From NCBI GenBank assembly GCA_017409205.1, contig JAFQTF010000058.1:1-41219 (forward strand): a DNA stretch of 41,219 bases, in the 5' to 3' direction. The notes beneath the pieces were generated by a model. It ran no database searches. It was not told the origin of the DNA and was given only the letters and a program-made list of their open reading frames with translations. This DNA is from Oscillospiraceae bacterium. Its GTDB lineage: Bacteria > Bacillota > Clostridia > Oscillospirales > Oscillospiraceae. This document shows, piece by piece, positions 11,845 to 31,725 of this stretch (positions are counted from its first letter, which is position 1; each line of letters opens with the position of its first letter). Both the position numbers and the translations under genes were made by a program.

Positions 11845-12867
11845 TTATTCCGGATCCCGCCGGGCGCAGCTGGCGCGCTCCACGATGCGGTGGGGAACGA
11901 TGATCTTGGTGGGACGCAGGTTGGGATTGTCCATGCAGCTGATGATCTGGGTAGCGGCTTCCTGACCCAGCTGATAGGAATGGATATCCACAGAGGTGAG
12001 CTGGGGTTCTGCCAGTTGACTGAAGAGGGAATTGTTGAAGGTAATGATGGAGATATCCTCCGGAATGGACAGCTTCCTCTTTGCACAGGCCCGTTCCAGT
12101 GCAAGGGCAAGCAGATCCTCGCCGACCACAAAGGCGGTGGGACGATCCTCACGGGCCAGCAGAGACATCAATGCCTCATCACTGGCGTGGACATTTTCCA
12201 TTTCCACGCTGTATTCTTCCGGCACGGTGATGCCGTGGAGCATCATGGACAACTGCCAGCCGGTATGGCGGTCAGAGGCAAACACAAAATCCTTGCGGCC
12301 GCCCAGATAGCCAATGCGCCGGTGGCCCAGATCATAGAGGTAGTCGGTGGCCTCCCGGCTGGCCAGCAGATTGTCGTTGTCGATGCTGAGTGTCTGGCCT
12401 GCCAGTTCCTGGGGCTTACCCACGATGACATACAGAATACCGCGTTCGCACAGATAATCGGTAACCGGGTCATTTTTTCGGGAATAGAGCAGGATAAAAC
12501 CATCCATCCGGCCGCTTAGGTGCAGGGTCTTCACGGAGCGAAGCAGCTCTTCGGGATCACGGCCGGTGACAACGGTACTGGCGATCTGCTTCTGGTTGCA
12601 CACCTGACTGATGCCCCGGATGGCCTTCAGGAAGAAGTTATTTTCAAAGGTATCCATGCCCGCAGGAGGCAGCACGATGCCGATCATTTTGATGGGGGTG
12701 GCGGGGGTCTCTGCAGGTGCAGCCGGCTCATAGCCCAGTTCGGCCATGGCCTTGCGCACACGCTCCTGGGTTTCACGGCTGATTGCAGGATTGTTGTTGC
12801 AAACTCTGGAAACGGTGGATGTGGAGACGCCTGCCAGAGCGGCCACGTCCCGGATGGTAACTGCCAT
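11845..12867 (-). CDS. LacI-family transcriptional regulator (MalR-like)
   Basis: A 340-residue repressor. The N-terminal HTH and hinge are clear: VTIRDVAALAGVSTSTVSRVCNNNPAIS, then ERVRKAMAELGYEP. The rest is a periplasmic-binding-like sugar domain (KMIGIVLPPAG, DGFILLYSR, RRIGYLGGRKDFVFASDRHTGW, PTAFVVGEDLLALAL). It lies between malQ and an alpha-glucosidase, and its own promoter is near-perfect (TTGACA, 17 bp, TACAAT at 12926-12898). By context it responds to maltose or maltodextrin; this is inference. Candidate operators lie upstream of malQ and the GH13 gene. Confidence 0.9.
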   Translation of the reverse strand: MAVTIRDVAALAGVSTSTVSRVCNNNPAISRETQERVRKAMAELGYEPAAPAETPATPIKMIGIVLPPAGMDTFENNFFLKAIRGISQVCNQKQIASTVVTGRDPEELLRSVKTLHLSGRMDGFILLYSRKNDPVTDYLCERGILYVIVGKPQELAGQTLSIDNDNLLASREATDYLYDLGHRRIGYLGGRKDFVFASDRHTGWQLSMMLHGITVPEEYSVEMENVHASDEALMSLLAREDRPTAFVVGEDLLALALERACAKRKLSIPEDISIITFNNSLFSQLAEPQLTSVDIHSYQLGQEAATQIISCMDNPNLRPTKIIVPHRIVERASCARRDPE

Positions 12868-23954: not shown

Positions 23955-24028
23955 GCGGGTGTAGTTCAATGGTAGAACACCAGCCTTCCAAGCTGGATAC
24001 GCGGGTCCGATTCCCGTCACCCGCTCCA
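23955..24028 (+). tRNA. tRNA-Gly (anticodon TCC)
   Basis: A 74-base cloverleaf with encoded CCA. The acceptor GCGGGTG pairs with CACCCGC; anticodon loop CTTCCAA gives TCC. First of three tRNAs. Confidence 0.97.
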
Positions 24029-24036
24029 TTCAACAT

Positions 24037-24113
24037 GCGCCAGTAGCTCAGCTGGATAGAGCAACTGCCTTCTAAGCAGTAGGTCAGGGGTTCGAGTCCC
24101 TTCTGGCGTGCCA
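24037..24113 (+). tRNA. tRNA-Arg (anticodon TCT)
   Basis: A 77-base cloverleaf with encoded CCA. The acceptor GCGCCAG pairs with CTGGCGT, ending in the GT wobble; anticodon loop CTTCTAA gives TCT. Confidence 0.96.
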
Positions 24114-24147
24114 ATCTCTTCGGGTGCTGATTCAGCCAAGCAATATG

Positions 24148-24224
24148 GTGGGTGTGGCCTAGTTGGCTAAGGCGTCAGATTGTGGCTCTGAAGATCGTGG
24201 GTTCAAGTCCCATCATCCACCCCA
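24148..24224 (+). tRNA. tRNA-His (anticodon GTG)
   Basis: The acceptor GTGGGTG pairs with CATCCAC, the discriminator is C, and CCA is encoded. The anticodon loop TTGTGGC gives GTG. The G at 24147 provides the extra 5' G-1 of tRNA-His. Its 3' end is copied downstream (see the element at 24204-24420). Confidence 0.95.
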
Positions 24225-24420
24225 GAAAAAAGAAAGGATACCATCTGGTATCCTTTCTTTTTTATTTCTGATGGGACTTGAAAAACTGAATGCAATGCTC
24301 CGATGGAGCATTGCTCGATGCGGGCTTGACCGCATCGACACCTTAATGTTACAAGTCCCATCATCCTGTTCCGAAAAAGTACCTGCCTGGATGCAGTTTC
24401 CAGACAGGTACTTCTTTTTT
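24204..24420 (+). repeat. tRNA-tail hairpin element B, after tRNA-His
   Basis: The order of parts is as in the element at 1214-1454. The tRNA T-arm and acceptor (CAAGTCCCATCATCC, 24204-24218) are followed by a terminator (24229-24242 with 24247-24260, then T). Next come an inverted T-arm copy GATGGGACTTGAA (24270-24282), a hairpin with 10-bp stem and GAT loop (24292-24314), a 9-bp hairpin (24315-24338), an exact 15-bp direct copy of the tRNA tail (24352-24366), and a strong terminator (24377-24385 with 24405-24413, then six T). The inverted and direct copies can pair over 11 bp (24270-24280 with 24352-24362), enclosing both hairpins. Confidence 0.75.
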
Positions 24421-24465
24421 ATGTTGGAATGATGCCCGGAACCGGATATTGTTCCAGGAGATACG

Positions 24466-24500
24466 AAAACTCCCTGTACCGCAATACAGGGAGTTTTCTT
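24466..24500 (-). terminator. Terminator of the amidohydrolase-MFS operon
   Basis: AAAACTCCCTGTA (24466-24478) pairs with TACAGGGAGTTTT (24485-24497); on the reverse strand the stem ends in TTTT. Confidence 0.8.
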
Positions 24501-24527
24501 GTGGAAAGGAAATCTATGGAACGGCAA

Positions 24528-25949
24528 TTATGCCTTGGTCTCGGTTTCCAGCATGGGACGGATCTTGGACAGACACAGAACCACGCCGATGACAGTAACA
24601 ATACCGGCGGTCAGGAACACGCCGTTTACACCCTTCTGCACAGTATCTGCGGTGACACCGGAAGCGGTACACATACCGTAAATGGCACTGTAAATGGCAG
24701 CGGCAATCGAAGCAGACAGGGAGTTGGCGAAGTTAATCATGGAAGTGCCGATGCCAATATCCTCGGTTTTCAGTACACTCTGGGCGGCGGGAGTGAAGGA
24801 GATGCCACGGAAGGATTCACCAACACCGGAGACGGTGATGACAACGAAATAGACGATGATGTACCAGCCGGCCTGCACGGTAAAGCCCATGGCCAGCAGA
24901 GGAATGGCAAACAGCAGAGTGGAGAGGAACATAGCCTTCCACATATTGGCCTTCTTCTTGGCCATCCATGCGCCGGCAATGGCAGGCAGGATCATGGTGA
25001 CAATGGTCTTGGGGAACTGGAGCATGCCGGACAGGGCCACGGAGGTTTTGATAACCTGCTGTGCACCCAGAGGTGCGTAGTTGTCAACAGCGCCACGGCC
25101 AAAGTAGCAGATGGCACCCACCAGCAGGAACAGCAGATAATCTCTCTGCTTGAACAGCTTGATGGGGATGATGGGAGCTTCAATGGAAGCTTCGTGCTTC
25201 AGCAGAACGACCACAAAGACAACGCCTACAACGAAAATAATGCCGCTGACCAGCAGGCTCCAGCCCAGAGTTGTACCACTTAAGGACAGGGTCACACAAG
25301 GCAGTGAGATGGCCATGAGCACGATGCCCTTGTAGTCAATGGCAACCTTCTTGCCGGACTTGTCATTGGGATAGCACAGACCGATCAGCAGAATACCAAC
25401 AACCAGGGGAACTGCAGGGAACAGGATAGCTGCATTCAGCATGCCCATATCGGTCAGGATACCGGCAAGAATGGAGCCGCCGGTGCCGCCGATGGCCAGA
25501 GCCATGGTCAGATAGCCCATAGCCTTGGGAACGTTCTTCTTCTCGTTGATCAGGCCCATGATGATATAGGGTGCGGAAACGTAAGCGCCCTGGGAGAAGC
25601 CGACACCGAAGCAGCAGATCAGCAGAACCAGAACATTGGAGGAGAAGGCGATGCCGACACCGCAGACCAGGTTGATCAGACCTGCCACGACAACAACTGC
25701 CTTACGGCCGAAGATATCGCCCAGCTTGCCGCCGATGGGAGACAGCAGGGTAATGCCCAGGGAAATGCACAGGCCAACCAGACCTGCATAGCTCATGCCA
25801 TCCAGACGCTGCAGAATGGGGGGAACCAGAGTCATCAGCGCCAGACCGTAGCAGGCAACGGCAACGGTCAGCATGATGGCGCCAAACTGTACAAGGTTCT
25901 TTTTGCCCTTGGGCAGCGGGATAATGGCGGTGGAATTTTCGTTTGCCAT
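24528..25949 (-). CDS. MFS transporter (14-segment, DHA2-like)
   Basis: A 473-residue membrane protein with about 14 hydrophobic segments. The MFS signature between segments 2 and 3 reads GGKLGDIFGRKAVVV, and segment 5 has GGTGGSILAGIL. The fold is that of DHA2 drug/proton antiporters, which are often called multidrug pumps, but the context argues for a metabolite. The gene is 51 bp downstream of an M20D amidohydrolase in the same operon, so it may import the amide substrate or export its product. No family detail fixes the substrate. Confidence 0.88.
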   Translation of the reverse strand: MANENSTAIIPLPKGKKNLVQFGAIMLTVAVACYGLALMTLVPPILQRLDGMSYAGLVGLCISLGITLLSPIGGKLGDIFGRKAVVVVAGLINLVCGVGIAFSSNVLVLLICCFGVGFSQGAYVSAPYIIMGLINEKKNVPKAMGYLTMALAIGGTGGSILAGILTDMGMLNAAILFPAVPLVVGILLIGLCYPNDKSGKKVAIDYKGIVLMAISLPCVTLSLSGTTLGWSLLVSGIIFVVGVVFVVVLLKHEASIEAPIIPIKLFKQRDYLLFLLVGAICYFGRGAVDNYAPLGAQQVIKTSVALSGMLQFPKTIVTMILPAIAGAWMAKKKANMWKAMFLSTLLFAIPLLAMGFTVQAGWYIIVYFVVITVSGVGESFRGISFTPAAQSVLKTEDIGIGTSMINFANSLSASIAAAIYSAIYGMCTASGVTADTVQKGVNGVFLTAGIVTVIGVVLCLSKIRPMLETETKA

Positions 25950-26000
25950 AATTGGTAATTCTCCTAACTTCTTTAATTTGAAATGCCGTGAGACATTTTC

Positions 26001-27176
26001 TTACTTGTTGTTCTTCAGCCACTCAGTTGCGCAGTGGGCGTAGCAGGCGGCGCCCATGGGGCACACATCCTCGTTGAACTGAACCTTGGGGTTGTGGGCA
26101 GGTGCCAGGCCACGGTCATCCAGGAAACCTGCAGACAGGTACATGAAGGTGCTGGGGATCCGCTCAGCGATGGAAGCGAAGTCCTCGGAAGCGGAGGCGG
26201 AAATGCCGGGATAGGGCATAGCGCCGGGGATGCCCATGGCAGACATATATCCCACAAACTCATTGGTCAGCTTGGGATCGCAGATCAGAGGAGCAACGCC
26301 GGAGGGACGCTCGATCTCCACGGTGCCGCCGTATACGGCAGCGATGCGTTCTGCAACTTCCTGCATACGGCGGACCAGCAGTTCCCGGGAGGCCTTGTCG
26401 TTAGAGCGGATGGTGCCTTCCAGAACGGCAGACTCGGGGATGATGTTGGGGGCAGAACCGGCGTTGAACTTGCCGATGGTCAGAACGTTTGCCTTGGCAG
26501 GATCCACTTCCCGGGCAATGAGGGATTCCAGACCCATATAGATATGGGCAGCGATATTGATGGGATCGATGCCGGAATGGGGGTAAGCACCATGGGAGCC
26601 CTTGCCATGGACTGTGATTTTGAAGCCGTCCACAGAGAACATCATGGTACCGGTGGCATTGTACATATAAATACCCACAGGCATCTTGCCAGAGGTGACA
26701 TGGTAGGCCAGAGCAGCATCGGGAACAGGATTCTCCAGAATGCCGTTTTCGATCATGTCCTTTGCGCCCTCAAAGGTCTCCTCTGCAGGCTGGAACATGA
26801 ACTTGACAGTACCTTCCAGATTTGCTTCGTTTTCCTTCAGCATTTTGGCAGCGGTCAGCAGCATGGCAACATGGAAGTCATGGCCGCAGGTGTGTGCTTC
26901 GGTGCCGGTGGGGCAAGCAAAGTCCAGACCGGATTCCTCTGCCATGGGAAGGGCATCCATATCGGCCCGCAGCAGCAGGCACTTACCACTCTTACCGACG
27001 GTAGCAGTAACACCGTGGCCGCAGGGCTTGGCATCGATGCCCAGCTTCTTCAGCTCTTCCAGAACATAGGCCTGGCCCTTGGGCATATTCAGACCGATTT
27101 CTGCATTGACATGGAAGAACCGGCGGTGAGCGATGGTTTCTTCCTTCAGGGCAAGGGCTCTTTCATAATAATTCAT
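26001..27176 (-). CDS. M20D-family amidohydrolase (N-acyl-amino-acid hydrolase type)
   Basis: A 391-residue cytoplasmic metallohydrolase of the M20 subfamily D, the usual length. It hydrolyses N-acyl or peptide amides. Metal-site residues: LLRADMDALP, AHTCGHDFH (Cys97, His99), FQPAEE (Glu132, Glu133), ALAYHVTS, and HNPKVQFNEDV near the C-terminus. The dimerisation domain is between about 185 and 290 (HGKGSHGAYPHSGIDPI). Hippurate hydrolase and N-acetyl-amino-acid deacetylase are close relatives; the substrate is unknown. It has a near-perfect promoter (TTGACG, 17 bp, TATACT) with an operator directly after it, shared with the divergent DUF5058 operon. Confidence 0.93.
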   Translation of the reverse strand: MNYYERALALKEETIAHRRFFHVNAEIGLNMPKGQAYVLEELKKLGIDAKPCGHGVTATVGKSGKCLLLRADMDALPMAEESGLDFACPTGTEAHTCGHDFHVAMLLTAAKMLKENEANLEGTVKFMFQPAEETFEGAKDMIENGILENPVPDAALAYHVTSGKMPVGIYMYNATGTMMFSVDGFKITVHGKGSHGAYPHSGIDPINIAAHIYMGLESLIAREVDPAKANVLTIGKFNAGSAPNIIPESAVLEGTIRSNDKASRELLVRRMQEVAERIAAVYGGTVEIERPSGVAPLICDPKLTNEFVGYMSAMGIPGAMPYPGISASASEDFASIAERIPSTFMYLSAGFLDDRGLAPAHNPKVQFNEDVCPMGAACYAHCATEWLKNNK

Positions 27177-27227
27177 GAAATATCATCCTTTCTTTTCCGG
27201 CAAATGGAGCATCTGTCAGAAAAATGA

Positions 27228-27286
27228 ATTTTGGTATATTTATGGAATACTATAAAAAGTATACCAGTGTTTTTCTTTTCCGTCAA
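27228..27286 (-). promoter_or_regulatory. Promoter and operator of the amidohydrolase-MFS operon
   Basis: On the reverse strand: -35 TTGACG (27286-27281), 17-bp spacer, -10 TATACT (27263-27258). Then two abutting 11-bp motifs, TATTCCATAAA and TATACCAAAAT (27249-27228), lie at the transcription start. The same motif appears at 28759-28789 and 28915-28936. Confidence 0.75.
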
Positions 27287-27348
27287 CAAGTGTTCCTAAA
27301 TTCTACGATATTTGAAAAAAGTATATGCATTCTTTGTGAAATAACAAC

Positions 27349-27386
27349 AAAATTCCGCTTCCATAAGAAAAGGAAGCGGAATTTTA
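27349..27386. terminator. Terminator of the sensor-regulator gene
   Basis: AAAATTCCGCTTCC and GGAAGCGGAATTTT (about 27349-27385) form a 14-bp stem that can end transcripts on either strand. It insulates the regulator from the amidohydrolase operon. Confidence 0.8.
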
Positions 27387-27398
27387 ACGTATACCATA

Positions 27399-28727
27399 TT
27401 ATTGGAAAGCTGTTCCAAAATCCAGAGCATATACCTGGATGGGGCGGCCCCGGGAGTGCGTTGTCTGGGTATAAACAGGTTTTGCCACATTCCCCCGGCA
27501 CAGATTCAGCATGATGCGGTTTGCATTGCGAATGGTGGTGTTCATTTTCTGTGCCATTTCCGGAATGGTGATCTTATCAGATCCATTGCTGTTGATAATA
27601 TTCTGAAGCTTCTGAATGGTCATGGCAGAAAGGCTGCAGCGTTTGGCGATCTGGCTGACATCCGGCAGGGAATTGGGAGAAATCACCATCCGGTTATCTG
27701 AATTCAAAGGGCCGATCAGATTGCCGTTGGTATCCACAACAAAGGAATGTCCCAGAATCTTGGCCTCTTTGGACGCGATCTGTACATTGTTCATGGCATG
27801 GGAAACCGTGGTTCCAATGCCATAGGCTACCGCCACAGCGAAGTCCAGCTGTTCCTCCAGCCAGGAAGCAATCCGGCAGACCTGGAATTCATTGGTCAAA
27901 AACCGCAGAATTCCCATGGAGCTGATGATGGTGCAGGACTGTCCATTCTGCTGCAGAACACCGTCAATGAAATGATTGTTCATATACTGCTGCAGCAGAT
28001 CGTAGATATGCTGGATATGTTCAGCTGTCGTATCGCTGGAATGCCGGGGAAAGATCTGAATGATCGAGGGATGATTGTCGTGCAGGTGATTCAATTCGAT
28101 TTTCACAAGGACTTCCTGAACCACCCTATACAGATCGGCATCAGAGATATAAGGGCACCGGAAAGGAATGCCCTTCTCCTGCAGTGCCGGAACAATGCTG
28201 GCATACAGGCAGAGCACCATATCGATGGCATTCTGCTCCCAGAGAGCAACAATCTGCTCCAGAATTACAGTTTCCAGAGACTTAGAATTCTGGGTGCCCA
28301 CAATCTCAGTCAGGCTGTCATTTTGACTGATAACAGCTTCCATGGTATCCAGCTTCAGAAAATCCACCACAGAAAAACCGCAGTTCAGTGGAACCAGAAA
28401 GTCCACTGCAATCCGGCTGAAATCCAGATTATGGGTTTCAATGGCAAACCGAAGAATATCCCGGTGCAGCGCATCAGAATCCACCTGAAAAGCGGTGATC
28501 AGCTTCTGTGTATCCGGAAATTTCAGATCCAGAACATGCTTGGCACTGGTACCGGTGATGAGAACGGCATCAAAATCATCGGCATACTGTTCGTATACCT
28601 GTGGAATATGGTCAAAGCTTTGGTAGGTGACGACCTTTGTCGCACAATCCAGATTCATTCTGGACAGGGCGCTTACCGTAGGCTGAAAGAAATACTGGTT
28701 GGTGAGAAATAAAAGTTTTTTCTGCAT
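27399..28727 (-). CDS. Sensor-type transcriptional regulator (PrpR_N-like, GGDEF-like, C-terminal HTH)
   Basis: A 442-residue protein. The N-terminal third (KLLFLTNQYFFQPTVSALSRM, DAVLITGTSAKHVL) reads like a Rossmann-type ligand sensor, perhaps PrpR_N-like. The middle part (about 255-345: ISSMGILRFLTNEFQ, FAVAVAYGIGTTVSHAMNNVQIA, SFVVDTNGNLIGPL) resembles the degenerate GGDEF-like domain of CdaR-type regulators. The last 90 residues form a helix-turn-helix region (SDKITIPEMAQKMNTTIRNANRI) ending in GRPIQVYALDF. Its promoter contains the same 11-bp motif as its two neighbouring operons, so it likely represses all three and responds to the substrate. Domain names are my reading, not a search. 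Confidence 0.65.
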   Translation of the reverse strand: MQKKLLFLTNQYFFQPTVSALSRMNLDCATKVVTYQSFDHIPQVYEQYADDFDAVLITGTSAKHVLDLKFPDTQKLITAFQVDSDALHRDILRFAIETHNLDFSRIAVDFLVPLNCGFSVVDFLKLDTMEAVISQNDSLTEIVGTQNSKSLETVILEQIVALWEQNAIDMVLCLYASIVPALQEKGIPFRCPYISDADLYRVVQEVLVKIELNHLHDNHPSIIQIFPRHSSDTTAEHIQHIYDLLQQYMNNHFIDGVLQQNGQSCTIISSMGILRFLTNEFQVCRIASWLEEQLDFAVAVAYGIGTTVSHAMNNVQIASKEAKILGHSFVVDTNGNLIGPLNSDNRMVISPNSLPDVSQIAKRCSLSAMTIQKLQNIINSNGSDKITIPEMAQKMNTTIRNANRIMLNLCRGNVAKPVYTQTTHSRGRPIQVYALDFGTAFQ

Positions 28728-28744
28728 GAGATCACCCCAGGCGC

Positions 28745-28789
28745 ATTATATCGCAGTGTATTCCATAATTCAACAGAATATTCCAAAAA
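28745..28789 (-). promoter_or_regulatory. Promoter and operator of the sensor-regulator gene
   Basis: The reverse strand has -35 TTGAAT (28773-28768), a 17-bp spacer and -10 TATAAT (28750-28745). Motif TATTCCATAAT (28759-28769, + strand) fills the spacer, and a second copy TATTCCAAAAA (28779-28789) lies just upstream of the -35, 20 bp away. Confidence 0.7.
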
Positions 28790-28874
28790 CTATCGAATTG
28801 CTCAGAAATGTCCTGTCCATTTTGTGATAACTTACGAAATCCAGATCCTGAATTCAAAAATGTCGCAGCGTGCG

Positions 28875-28938
28875 TTGACAATGGCCCGGAAATAGGATAT
28901 TTTATTGTGTAAGGTATTCTAAAAATATTCCATAAATA
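28875..28938 (+). promoter_or_regulatory. Promoter and operator of the DUF5058 operon
   Basis: TTGACA (28875-28880), a 17-bp spacer, TATTTT (28898-28903). Two abutting motifs, TATTCTAAAAA (28915-28925) and TATTCCATAAA (28926-28936), follow just after the expected start of transcription. Confidence 0.75.
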
Positions 28939-29006
28939 GAAGGATACCCACGCGGCCCAAACAGGAATGTTTGGATTTTTATCAGGTAGAAAGGAATGTT
29001 TGAATT

Positions 29007-29723
29007 ATGGCAACCATCAAAGACATTATTGGCAGTCCTCTGCTGCTGGCACTGGTCTGCGGCGGCCTGCTGTACATCACTGCTTTTTCCGTGGTGTATC
29101 TGCTGAAGGCAAGAAAGCGGGCACTGGAAATGGGCATCACCCAGAAGGAGATCAATGATATCATTAAGTCTTCTTTGATTTTCTCTGTTGTTCCCTCTCT
29201 CTCCATCGTCATCGGCCTGGTGGCACTGGCTGCCTCTCTGGGTACTGTGTGGGCATGGTGGAGACTGTCTGTTATCGGCTCTCTGTCCTTTGAGACGCAG
29301 ATCGCATCCAACCTGGCTCCTACCATGGGTTTTGCTTCCACCACGGAGCTGATGGAGAAGGCCACCGGCGAGCAGTTCGGCGTGGTTATGATTCTGATGT
29401 CTGTCGGTATGCTGGCCGGCTTCGCTATTCTGCTGCCCCTCGGCAAGAAGCTTATGACCTCTGTGGACAAGACCAAAGGCGGTAACGGCTGGAGCAACGT
29501 TCTGTCCGGCTGCTTCATGCTGACTCTGCTGGCTGTCTATGTGCCGCTTCTGCTGATCTGTGACACCTACCAGGCTCTGGTTATGGTCACCGGTCTGATC
29601 GTGGCGATCGTCCTGGGTATCTTCGCCAAGAAGCCCGGCATGGCGTGGATGAACAACTTTATCATGGCAGGCTCCATGATCGTTGCAATGGTCTCTGCTC
29701 TGCTGTGGACTTCCATTTTCTAA
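29007..29723 (+). CDS. DUF5058-family membrane protein
   Basis: A 238-residue integral membrane protein with about six hydrophobic segments. It matches DUF5058: VCGGLLYITAFSVVYLLKARKRALEMGI, then FSVVPSLSIVIGLVALAASLGTVWAWWRLSVIGSL, and a long middle loop with AMGFASTTEL-like sequence (APTMGFASTTELMEKA). The function is unassigned. The next gene, 18 bp downstream, is another membrane protein, and the pair likely forms one complex. Shared regulation with an amidohydrolase suggests transport of an amide or amino-acid-like compound. This is inference. Confidence 0.82.
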   Translation: MATIKDIIGSPLLLALVCGGLLYITAFSVVYLLKARKRALEMGITQKEINDIIKSSLIFSVVPSLSIVIGLVALAASLGTVWAWWRLSVIGSLSFETQIASNLAPTMGFASTTELMEKATGEQFGVVMILMSVGMLAGFAILLPLGKKLMTSVDKTKGGNGWSNVLSGCFMLTLLAVYVPLLLICDTYQALVMVTGLIVAIVLGIFAKKPGMAWMNNFIMAGSMIVAMVSALLWTSIF

Positions 29724-29741
29724 GAGTAGGAGGATAATACA

Positions 29742-30494
29742 ATGAGCAAGAAGAATTATACACTGGATCCCTTCCAGGCATGGGCACACCGCTGGGGCCG
29801 TATCGGAACCCTGATCGCCCTGGTCTACATGATTGCCCTGCCCTTCATTGTTCTGAATTACTACAACTGCATGCCTTCTCTGGGCAGCGTCTTTAATGTG
29901 GCTACCTTTGGTATTCTGGCCATCTACATCCCCGTCGGTATCTCCGAGGCTCTGAGCTACACCCCCCTGATGGGTGCATCCAGCTATCTGGGCTTCATCA
30001 CCGGCAACATCATGAACCTGAAGCTGCCCTGCGCCGTCAACGCTCTGAAGATCGCCGGCAAGGAAGCCAACACCCCTGAGGGCGACGTAGTTGCTTCCAT
30101 CGGTGTTGCTGCCAGCTCCATCATGACTGTGGTTATCCTGACCATCGCTGCTCTGCTGGTCAACCTGATCAGCCCCATCTTCGAGCTGCCTGCTGTCAAG
30201 ACCATGTCCAACTATCTGCTGCCCGCTCTGTTCGGCTCCATGACTCTGGGACTGTTCTCCTCCACCTCCGCCGGCTCCAAGGTGGTCGTTGGTGGCCTGA
30301 AGGGTGTTATGCCTGTTATCATCATTGTTTCCCTGATCGCTCTGGCCAACCGGATCCTGAATATCATGCCCGGTACCACTCTGATGGGCATGGTCGGCTT
30401 CCTGATTCTGGCCATGCTGCCCGTTGCCATCATTACTTCCCGCATTATGTGGAAGAAGGGTAAGATCAAAGTCATCGACAAGGAGCAGGAATAA
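29742..30494 (+). CDS. Membrane partner of the DUF5058 protein
   Basis: A 250-residue membrane protein with about seven hydrophobic segments and a short basic C-terminus (WKKGKIKVIDKEQE). Notable segments are IYIPVGISEALSYTPLMGASSYLGFITGNIMNLKLPCAVNALKIAG and NYLLPALFGSMTLGLFSST. The first, with small residues and a helix break, looks like a substrate-binding re-entrant loop. AGGAGG lies before the ATG. I do not know a named function; it is translated with the DUF5058 gene and probably forms a two-subunit transporter. Confidence 0.7.
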   Translation: MSKKNYTLDPFQAWAHRWGRIGTLIALVYMIALPFIVLNYYNCMPSLGSVFNVATFGILAIYIPVGISEALSYTPLMGASSYLGFITGNIMNLKLPCAVNALKIAGKEANTPEGDVVASIGVAASSIMTVVILTIAALLVNLISPIFELPAVKTMSNYLLPALFGSMTLGLFSSTSAGSKVVVGGLKGVMPVIIIVSLIALANRILNIMPGTTLMGMVGFLILAMLPVAIITSRIMWKKGKIKVIDKEQE

Positions 30495-30582
30495 TCTGAC
30501 TGCCGCGGCTCTTGGATTGCCTTCATAGTCCTATAGCAGCACTGGTTCCTTCTCTTCTCCGGTGTCTGGCATCCATATGTTA

Positions 30583-30622
30583 CCTCCGGTTTGGGCCTTT
30601 GCGCTTAAACCGGAGGCTTTTG
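30583..30622 (+). terminator. Terminator of the DUF5058 operon
   Basis: CCTCCGGTTT (30583-30592) pairs with AAACCGGAGG (30607-30616), followed by CTTTTG. From 30495 to 30790 I see no credible gene. Confidence 0.75.
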
Positions 30623-30796
30623 TTCGCAGAACTGTTCGCCGCAACATAACAACCCGTCCACCCATTTCACATGTGACAGCTGTCCTTTCTGTCCCTGTTG
30701 TCCTTAGGATCGAACGCAAAAACAGATGGTGCATTCCACAGTAAGACTGTGCATTGTATCAACTTATTGTAGTTTTGCCAGAAAAGTTACCTTGAA

Positions 30797-31725
30797 ATGG
30801 ACAATACCGATTTTCTTGTCGAAATAGGTGCTTGTACGCGGGTACGATCAACGGGTGAGCTTAAGATCAAACGGGGTGCTCTTCTTTTCCTTGGAAAAGT
30901 TAACTCCATTAAAGAGCTGTTTCCACATTATCATGTTGATTTTTTCAATCATCGGGGCAACAATCCCAGATGGTCTGATCGGGTATCTGATGATGAGCCG
31001 AGCGATGATGAAATGAATCTTTTTAATTTCTATCGAATCGTCTATGAGAAAATGCGTTTACTGCTGCAGGAAGGGTTCCAACTTGACGGGCAGCAGCTCC
31101 GTATCCCAATTTCCGCTTTTGACGAAACTATTCGTGAGTGTCTGGTTAACTGTCTCGCACATGCGGACTACATTCTCGGCTATCCCTCTACAAAAATCGA
31201 TGTATATGATGGATGGTTCCGGTTTACAAATCCCGGTAAAATGCTGATTTCTCCTCAGCAGTTTTGGTCTGGTGGTGATTCCAGGCCTCGAAACGAAATT
31301 ATAATGAAACTTTTCCGTTTACTGGGTATGTCTGAACGGCAGGGTTTTGGTGGTCCTCTTATTTATAAAACTGCTATGCAGCATGATTATCGGAGACCTG
31401 AAATCATATCTGACATTGAGCATACTGAAATCACAGTTTGGAATATTGATCTTGCTGATTCGTATCCTAATTTAACTACAGATGAAAAGAGCGCTCTCCG
31501 TTTTATTGCAAAGGGGAACAAGACCCATCAATTAAAAATATCAAAGAGGCATTAGGAATCACCGATTACGCAACCAGAAAAGCAGTACAATCTTTGGAAG
31601 AATCCCAGTTGATCAGAAAGATTGGCAGTGGACCGTCAACAGCATATACCCTGCAGATCGACAGTATTGAATTCCTAACACAGCTTCAAGTAGCAATGGA
31701 ACAGTTAAGAAAACAGATGCAGTAA
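30797..31725 (+). pseudogene. C-terminal half of an AlbA_2/Schlafen-type ATP-binding regulator, frameshifted
   Basis: The sequence opens within the protein: RGALLFLGK, then IPISAFDETIRECLVNCLAHADYI (the histidine-kinase-like ATPase C-terminal region usual in these proteins), DGWFRFTNPGKML and PRNEIIMKLFRLLGMSERQGFG. The N-terminal AlbA_2 DNA-binding domain is missing. Around 31510-31525 the frame changes inside GCAAAGGGGAACAAG: after FIAKG the homologous C-terminal winged-helix part (SIKNIKEALGITDYATRKAV, then LRKQMQ and stop at 31725) continues in the next frame. A truncated start plus a frameshift make it nonfunctional. It is AT-rich relative to its neighbours, so it is likely acquired DNA. 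Confidence 0.8.

Follow-up and report, generated by a model that had tools for sequence, protein, structure and literature searches.

Direct repeats are described for two regulators of the GntR family, TGGTATAW for NanR and TGTATTAWTT for FarR (PMC4494728). For the IclR family, PMC8222616 describes locally acting, often autoregulated regulons obtained by phylogenetic footprinting. Here we describe a locus of Oscillospiraceae bacterium, probably an inhabitant of an animal gut, within a 41-kb stretch of 41,219 nt (the window), in which a regulator, REG, lies between two gene pairs. REG resembles NanR-type and other GntR direct-repeat regulators as a likely catabolic regulator acting on short direct repeats, and it resembles IclR regulons in that the operators are common to the regulator and co-localised genes and that recognition-helix residues correlate with the sites (PMC8222616). 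The IclR sites described there have palindromic parts, whereas those assigned to REG run head-to-tail. The literature searched contained nothing on this REG/operator system and no mention of DUF5058. Comparative sequence analysis gives good support to a local regulon of familiar type that is controlled by an uncharacterised regulator. For DUF5058 proteins, whose Pfam name denotes unknown function, it supplies an operator, a regulator and a set of genes open to testing, and it connects these membrane proteins with M20 hydrolases.

Organisation of the locus

Three genes on the minus strand are followed by two on the plus strand, in the order MFS, AMH, REG, DUF5058, P5:

24528..25949, minus strand: MFS transporter, second gene of the hydrolase operon (MFS_1, 107.4 bits against a cut-off of 33.4)
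26001..27176, minus strand: M20-family amidohydrolase (AMH), first gene of the operon (TIGR01891, 274.1 bits against a cut-off of 153.75)
27350..27385, no strand assigned: inverted repeat between the REG 3´ end and the AMH promoter, likely REG transcription terminator (by eye)
27399..28727, minus strand: regulator REG, 442 aa, with a C-terminal winged helix-turn-helix and without a whole-protein Pfam/NCBIfam model
29007..29723, plus strand: DUF5058 membrane protein (PF16481, 144.6 bits against a cut-off of 28.2)
29742..30494, plus strand: second membrane protein P5, the DUF5058 partner, without a Pfam match

AMH scored above the curated cut-off of TIGR01891 and also matched Peptidase_M20 and M20_dimer of Pfam. 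The DUF5058 protein scored above the curated cut-off of PF16481 and is encoded by the first gene of a likely two-subunit transporter. AMH and MFS, separated by a 51-bp intergenic gap, keep their order in three related loci (L053, L055 and L061), and P5 adjoins DUF5058 in ten (L045, L048, L053, L055, L061, L062, L087 and L137-L139); we infer that the second genes are co-transcribed with the first. DUF5058-P5 pairs also accompany M20 hydrolases in L048, L087, L138, L139 and L045, with DUF5058, P5 and AMH all in one direction in L138; the sequence retrieved around the L137 and L062 pairs revealed no AMH. The L048 pair, from the same genome as the window (C57:8000-20000), is a second DUF5058-P5 pair with another M20 peptidase and has in its vicinity a gene that, judged by eye, probably encodes a dimethylarginine dimethylaminohydrolase-like protein.

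An inverted repeat similar to that at 27350..27385 was seen by eye in L053, L054 and L061; it was absent among the three terminator-like matches of the promoter/terminator scan. An Rfam search of 24000-31600 returned two tRNAs and nothing else. These genes (24037-24110 and 24148-24221) lie ~0.3 kb downstream of MFS and possibly mark the border of a variable segment.

Paired operators at three promoters

The initial annotation had placed pairs of the motif TATTCCAWAAA at three promoters, and all six half-sites were recovered at the positions it gave:

27228..27249, minus strand: AMH operator, two abutting direct repeats of 11 bp, TATTCCATAAA-TATACCAAAAT, whose start is 8 nt past the -10 box
27258..27286, minus strand: AMH promoter TTGACG-17-TATACT (promoter scan)
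28745..28773, minus strand: REG promoter TTGAAT-17-TATAAT (promoter scan)
28759..28789, plus strand: REG-promoter operator, two copies 20 bp apart, in reversed orientation relative to REG
28875..28903, plus strand: DUF5058 promoter TTGACA-17-TATTTT (promoter scan)
28915..28936, plus strand: DUF5058 operator, abutting TATTCTAAAAA-TATTCCATAAA, beginning 11 nt past the -10 box

The two AMH copies match unequally, with two mismatches at 27228-27238 (minus strand) and none at 27239-27249 (minus strand). On the plus strand, the REG-promoter copies have one (28759-28769) and zero (28779-28789) mismatches, and the DUF5058 copies one (28915-28925) and zero (28926-28936). The -35 and -10 boxes, described as well matched with 17-bp spacers, bore this out: each promoter matched at 10 of 12 bases, and the three were the top three of seven promoter-like matches, against 4.0 expected from shuffles. 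The positions claimed for the motif also held, with both target operators just after the -10 box and the third over the spacer and -35 box of the REG promoter. There, the copy at 28759-28769 covers the spacer and the edge of the -35 box and that at 28779-28789 lies upstream of it, leaving the box TTGAAT between, and partly under, the two sites. Relative to transcription, the repeats read forward at both targets and reversed at the REG promoter.

Exact matches to TATTCCAWAAA in the 41-kb window numbered three, one per promoter. When up to two mismatches were allowed, 31 matches were found against 15.3 expected (maximum of 100 shuffles, 25).

REG belongs to a family with a C-terminal winged helix

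No Pfam or NCBIfam model covered REG at full length, and a search with the single protein revealed no relative among solved structures (best E 0.37). The two-row model of the full-length protein was poor (pLDDT 38.6, pTM 0.27), with the first ~60 residues modelled as E-H-E-H-E at moderate confidence. An alignment of 13 family members, however, showed a winged helix at the C-terminus and, close to the end, an invariant GRP, and the family profile matched the solved wHTH regulator 6cmv_A (positions 374-447, E 2.8e-5), one of three matches to solved structures with E <0.01 (6cmv, 3cta, 2d1h), all confined to the C-terminal HTH part. Winged-helix membership was likewise evident at the family level, with HTH_24 matching 9 of 13 members (best 2.2e-6) and HTH_Crp_2 10 of 13 (best 1e-4); on the C-terminal 88-aa piece of REG itself, HTH_24 matched residues 31-57 under the cut-off (E 0.055). 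The corresponding feature is:

27495..27575, minus strand: HTH match in REG, residues 385-411, holding the predicted recognition helix T-x-RNANRI (HTH_24 and alignment)

GntR proteins carry an N-terminal winged helix. Assignment of REG to this family was rejected, as its HTH is C-terminal and a GntR match occurred in 1 of 13 members (E 0.063). The IclR family, defined by an N-terminal HTH_IclR and an IclR ligand domain at the C-terminus, was rejected as well, given the C-terminal HTH and weak HTH_IclR matches in 5 of 13 members (best 0.0043); the IclR ligand domain was absent among the 25 of 38 families listed for REG members. Judged by eye, a Rossmann-like start and motifs such as YGIG...A..NA..A..E resemble those of regulators whose sensor part is PrpR_N-like or GGDEF-like; no PrpR_N-like or GGDEF-like Pfam/NCBIfam model for REG appeared among the matches listed (25 of 38 families for members).

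T-x-RNANRI was present in all nine regulators at loci with sites, including the relative of 26% identity, whereas 13 further family members all lack it. REGs with this helix group into a single clade (support 0.75 with the full alignment and 0.90 without the HTH part) in which the 26% relative has a long branch, so the helix was retained and not invented repeatedly. At the 13 family loci L035-L047, AMH-like M20 genes were detected by tblastn in 6 (L045 included), and BmpA/ABC-like and UbiD/UbiX-like genes were recognised by eye. Given these varied catabolic neighbours, the members of the family seem to act as local regulators.

Conservation of the operators beside REG relatives

REG is patchily distributed, with any match at E <=0.001 in 7 of 136 genomes of the genus (own genome included). 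Within the genus, the relatives have 97% (L002, L031, L055; G696), 69% (L053, L054), 52% (L061) and 46% (L062) identity; beyond it, L003 from a different genus has 39% and L045 from a different family of the same order has 43%. A distant REG-linked relative in G774 (L063) has 26%. Loss of the motif in relatives that keep the gene order had been proposed as evidence against the regulon. Instead, good abutting pairs (1-3 mismatches) accompany REGs of 97, 69, 69, 52 and 39% identity. In L053, L054 and L061, the pair lies at about the same distance past the -10 box as in the window, and the AMH -35 and -10 boxes are unchanged in L053 and L061. L003 has TATTCCATAAATATTCCAAAAG between REG and AMH, an abutting pair with one mismatch, and in L063 the pair at an AMH promoter reads TATTCCTAAAG-TATTCCTTAAC. 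L062 and L045 (46 and 43%) retain a good 20-bp pair in front of REG, with 4 and 3 mismatches, respectively; the pairs at L062 DUF5058 and L045 AMH are degraded (6 mismatches each), and the 350 bp upstream of DUF5058 in L045 lack such a pair (8 mismatches).

Chance similarity of AT-rich promoter sequence, common through recent descent, would be one explanation for the repeats, given that start regions are AT-rich and that the spacers of the window and L055 are almost identical. This is contradicted by how the operators compare with their surroundings. Against L053 and L061, 21, 20, 20 and 18 of 22 operator bases are kept, compared with 63-71% of the remaining spacer; the DUF5058 operator is the most conserved 22-mer of its spacer (rank 1 of 258 each) and the AMH operator ranks 3 and 20 of 201. 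Against L062, the DUF5058 operator ranks 66 of 258, with 15/22 bases kept and 64% of the remaining spacer. The one-mismatch pair of L003, in another genus beside a REG of 39% identity, also argues against recent descent, as does the fit at seven of nine helix-bearing loci, which was reached in 0/200 shuffles of the flanks. We therefore give this explanation next to no credence. The two exceptions are L062 and L045, where shuffles reach the observed fit in 14/200 and 9/200 cases. A tandem with at most 4 mismatches was found at 7/9 helix-bearing loci versus 0/13 others (Fisher p 2.1e-4). Among loci lacking the helix, L035 has a pair with 6 mismatches, equal to L045 and L062 and reached by 8/200 shuffles, and in L046 a 20-bp pair lying in AT-rich DNA has 4 mismatches.

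The phased pair is specific to the locus

The single 11-mer is weakly specific, with 95 matches at <=1 mismatch genome-wide versus 53 for the reversed control. By contrast, a search of the 1.76-Mb assembly (76.6% complete) for the abutting 22-mer at <=3 mismatches gave two matches, both at this locus (the AMH and DUF5058 promoters), and 0 for the reversed control; the paired motif is not due to chance. Four other exact single words in the assembly had no partner with <5 mismatches at offsets of -22, -21, -20, -11, 11, 20, 21 or 22, and no unlinked regulon target was found in this 76.6% complete assembly. Specificity resides in the phased pair, not in the single 11-mer.

Across the 136 genomes of the genus, a degenerate tandem pattern, composed after the relatives' sites had been seen, matched 22 places at <=2 mismatches, nine of them with 0, compared with 4 for the reversed control. 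Eight of the nine zero-mismatch tandems are at REG-linked AMH or DUF5058 promoters, and such tandems occur in 4/5 genomes with a helix-bearing REG versus 1/131 others (Fisher p 1.8e-6). Of the 13 two-mismatch tandems, one is the AMH site of L061 itself, one is at AMH of L087 and 11 are elsewhere, a number above the 4 of the reversed control; 8 of these 11 overlap a mechanical ORF of >=80 aa, 3 do not, and none adjoins a relative of the five window genes. The L087 tandem (12406-12427, G774 C33) lies upstream of AMH in an AMH-DUF5058-P5 set, on a contig that stops just beyond a divergent gene start.

These counts bear on the idea that the motif is the site of another, unlinked protein, such as a nucleoid or global regulator, with the proximity of REG being coincidental. 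The word is AT-rich like many global-regulator sites, the ninth zero-mismatch tandem is in a genome without a REG match (G756), and there are the 11 two-mismatch tandems elsewhere. A global regulator would, however, be expected to have many sites, and the own assembly has the pair at this locus only. We consider this idea very improbable, the more so as related genes of the same genus that are not beside REG lack the pair and the REG helix tracks it.

The pair accompanies an adjacent REG

The comparison of promoters with and without an adjacent REG used only the word TATTCCAWAAA from the initial annotation, applied to the 350 bp upstream of AMH or DUF5058, with REG relatives of 26-100% identity. 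The best abutting pair had 1-6 mismatches in 13/13 REG-linked upstream regions and 7-10 in 15/15 others, with no overlap (Mann-Whitney p 2.7e-6; 2.2e-5 without the window and its 97% sibling); since the promoters are related by descent, these p-values, like the Fisher value of the genus scan, overstate independence and are too small, with the direction unaffected. Omitted from the counts were L087 AMH, whose neighbour is beyond the contig end (2 mismatches, which would favour the association), L045 DUF5058, which is separated from REG by AMH (8 mismatches, which would disfavour it), and L141, which is identical to L140.

The non-linked genes are close relatives of those in the window. In genomes without a REG match (L137-L148), DUF5058 is 77-87% and AMH 55-79% identical; the others are an AMH of 57% identity in G774 (L149) and the second DUF5058 of the own genome (L048), which is without a REG operator. 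These last two come from genomes with REG elsewhere, and the absence of REG in the remaining genomes was judged from draft assemblies. Among the 15, L138 and L142 are from the same genome, and AMH of L138 is third in its operon, with a coding upstream stretch. The cleanest case is L139, where AMH (79%), MFS (87%), DUF5058 (77%) and P5 (78%) are all present, without REG and without the pair.

The initial annotation had also pointed to helical phasing of 11 or 20 bp, and the same spacings emerged across relatives. Among spacings of 9-25 bp, 11 was best in the target regions (n=13; mean 2.5 mismatches versus 5.1-6.6) and 20 was best at REG promoters (n=8; mean 4.0 versus 5.4-7.6). The 20-bp pair has 1-5 mismatches at 6/8 of these REG promoters and 7 in L003 and L063. 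That the sites track an adjacent REG and that the helix is invariant tie the sites to REG. With the pair present beside REG and absent elsewhere, a single REG regulon of three operons and five genes, as originally suggested, is the best reading.

A probable autorepressor

A protein bound on or just after promoter elements normally represses. The target operators lie just past the -10 box and the REG operator lies over the -35 box and spacer, which suggests repression by occlusion together with autorepression. We consider it quite probable that REG is a local autorepressor acting on head-to-tail 11-bp words and occluding the three promoters until a ligand releases it. The C-terminal winged helix would bind TATTCCAWAAA, with two REG protomers arranged head-to-tail along the same DNA face; their spacing would be 11 bp, or one turn, at the targets and 20 bp, roughly two turns, at the REG promoter. 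At the AMH-MFS and DUF5058-P5 promoters, REG covering roughly +1 to +25 would block RNA polymerase, and REG over the -35 box and spacer of its own promoter would give autorepression. Release would follow when the N-terminal part bound a small ligand, the likeliest being a dipeptide or N-acyl amino acid handled by the M20 hydrolase, or its product; uptake (DUF5058-P5, MFS) and cleavage (AMH) would then rise together. A ligand related to the hydrolase is suggested by gene content, as DUF5058-P5 recurs with M20 hydrolases. Here we infer binding by REG, repression, ligand, cooperativity and transporter function from sequence.

The architecture agrees with an autorepressor in that the operators at its own and the target promoters overlap promoter elements or the start; this is less clear in L003, L045 and L062. 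In L003, the best pair is 204 bp upstream of AMH, off what by eye appears to be the AMH promoter, and has further copies nearby, a position that fits repression less simply, and the mode of action may vary. Such copies upstream of a promoter would suit REG as an activator or dual regulator of the targets that represses nothing but its own promoter, and promoters close to consensus are still open to modulation. Target operators 8-11 nt downstream of the -10 box, a distance similar in L053, L054 and L061, would nevertheless be unusual for an activator, and the window promoters, being near consensus, should need no help. We regard activation as unlikely and favour the autorepressor.

Regulator alleles in a conserved cassette

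Against L061, the neighbours of REG have 87-96% protein identity (DUF5058 96%, MFS 94%) and dS of 0.4-0.6, compared with 52% and dS ~2, near saturation, for REG. Against L053, dS is ~0.2 for AMH and MFS, 0.7-0.8 for DUF5058 and P5, and ~1.8 for REG. The pattern is reversed against L055, where dS is lowest for REG (0.11) and highest for P5 (0.51). G696 carries both a 97% and a 69% REG allele, each by an AMH 98-99% identical to that of the window. It looks as though REG alleles were exchanged inside a conserved cassette with matched operators retained; codon bias in the transport genes or strain mixing in a MAG could also give such a mosaic.

More tentatively, and with considerable doubt, we propose that REG represents an undescribed family of ~440 aa (Rossmann-like start, middle sensor, C-terminal winged helix) that reads head-to-tail 11-bp words. 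In one clade, helix and word would have stayed fixed down to 26% identity and the rest been replaced by divergent alleles between conserved neighbours, such that the sensor could be exchanged without rewriting the operators. The REGs of 26-100% identity, with one helix and one word, form a natural series for learning how a sensor may diverge under a constant DNA code. Of all these results, the fixed helix and word beneath a changing sensor most merit further study.

Hairpins of differing sequence were observed in the DUF5058 leaders of the window (28937-29006), L053, L061, L062, L137, L138, L139 and L045, with z of -6.0 for L138, -5.4 for L045, -1.6 for the window and -1.4 for L139 (mononucleotide shuffles). 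In L138, which has no REG, the leader hairpin is followed by a T run and is terminator-like, and the leader in the window contains a terminator-like match at 28957-28974. Attenuation at DUF5058 leaders is possible.
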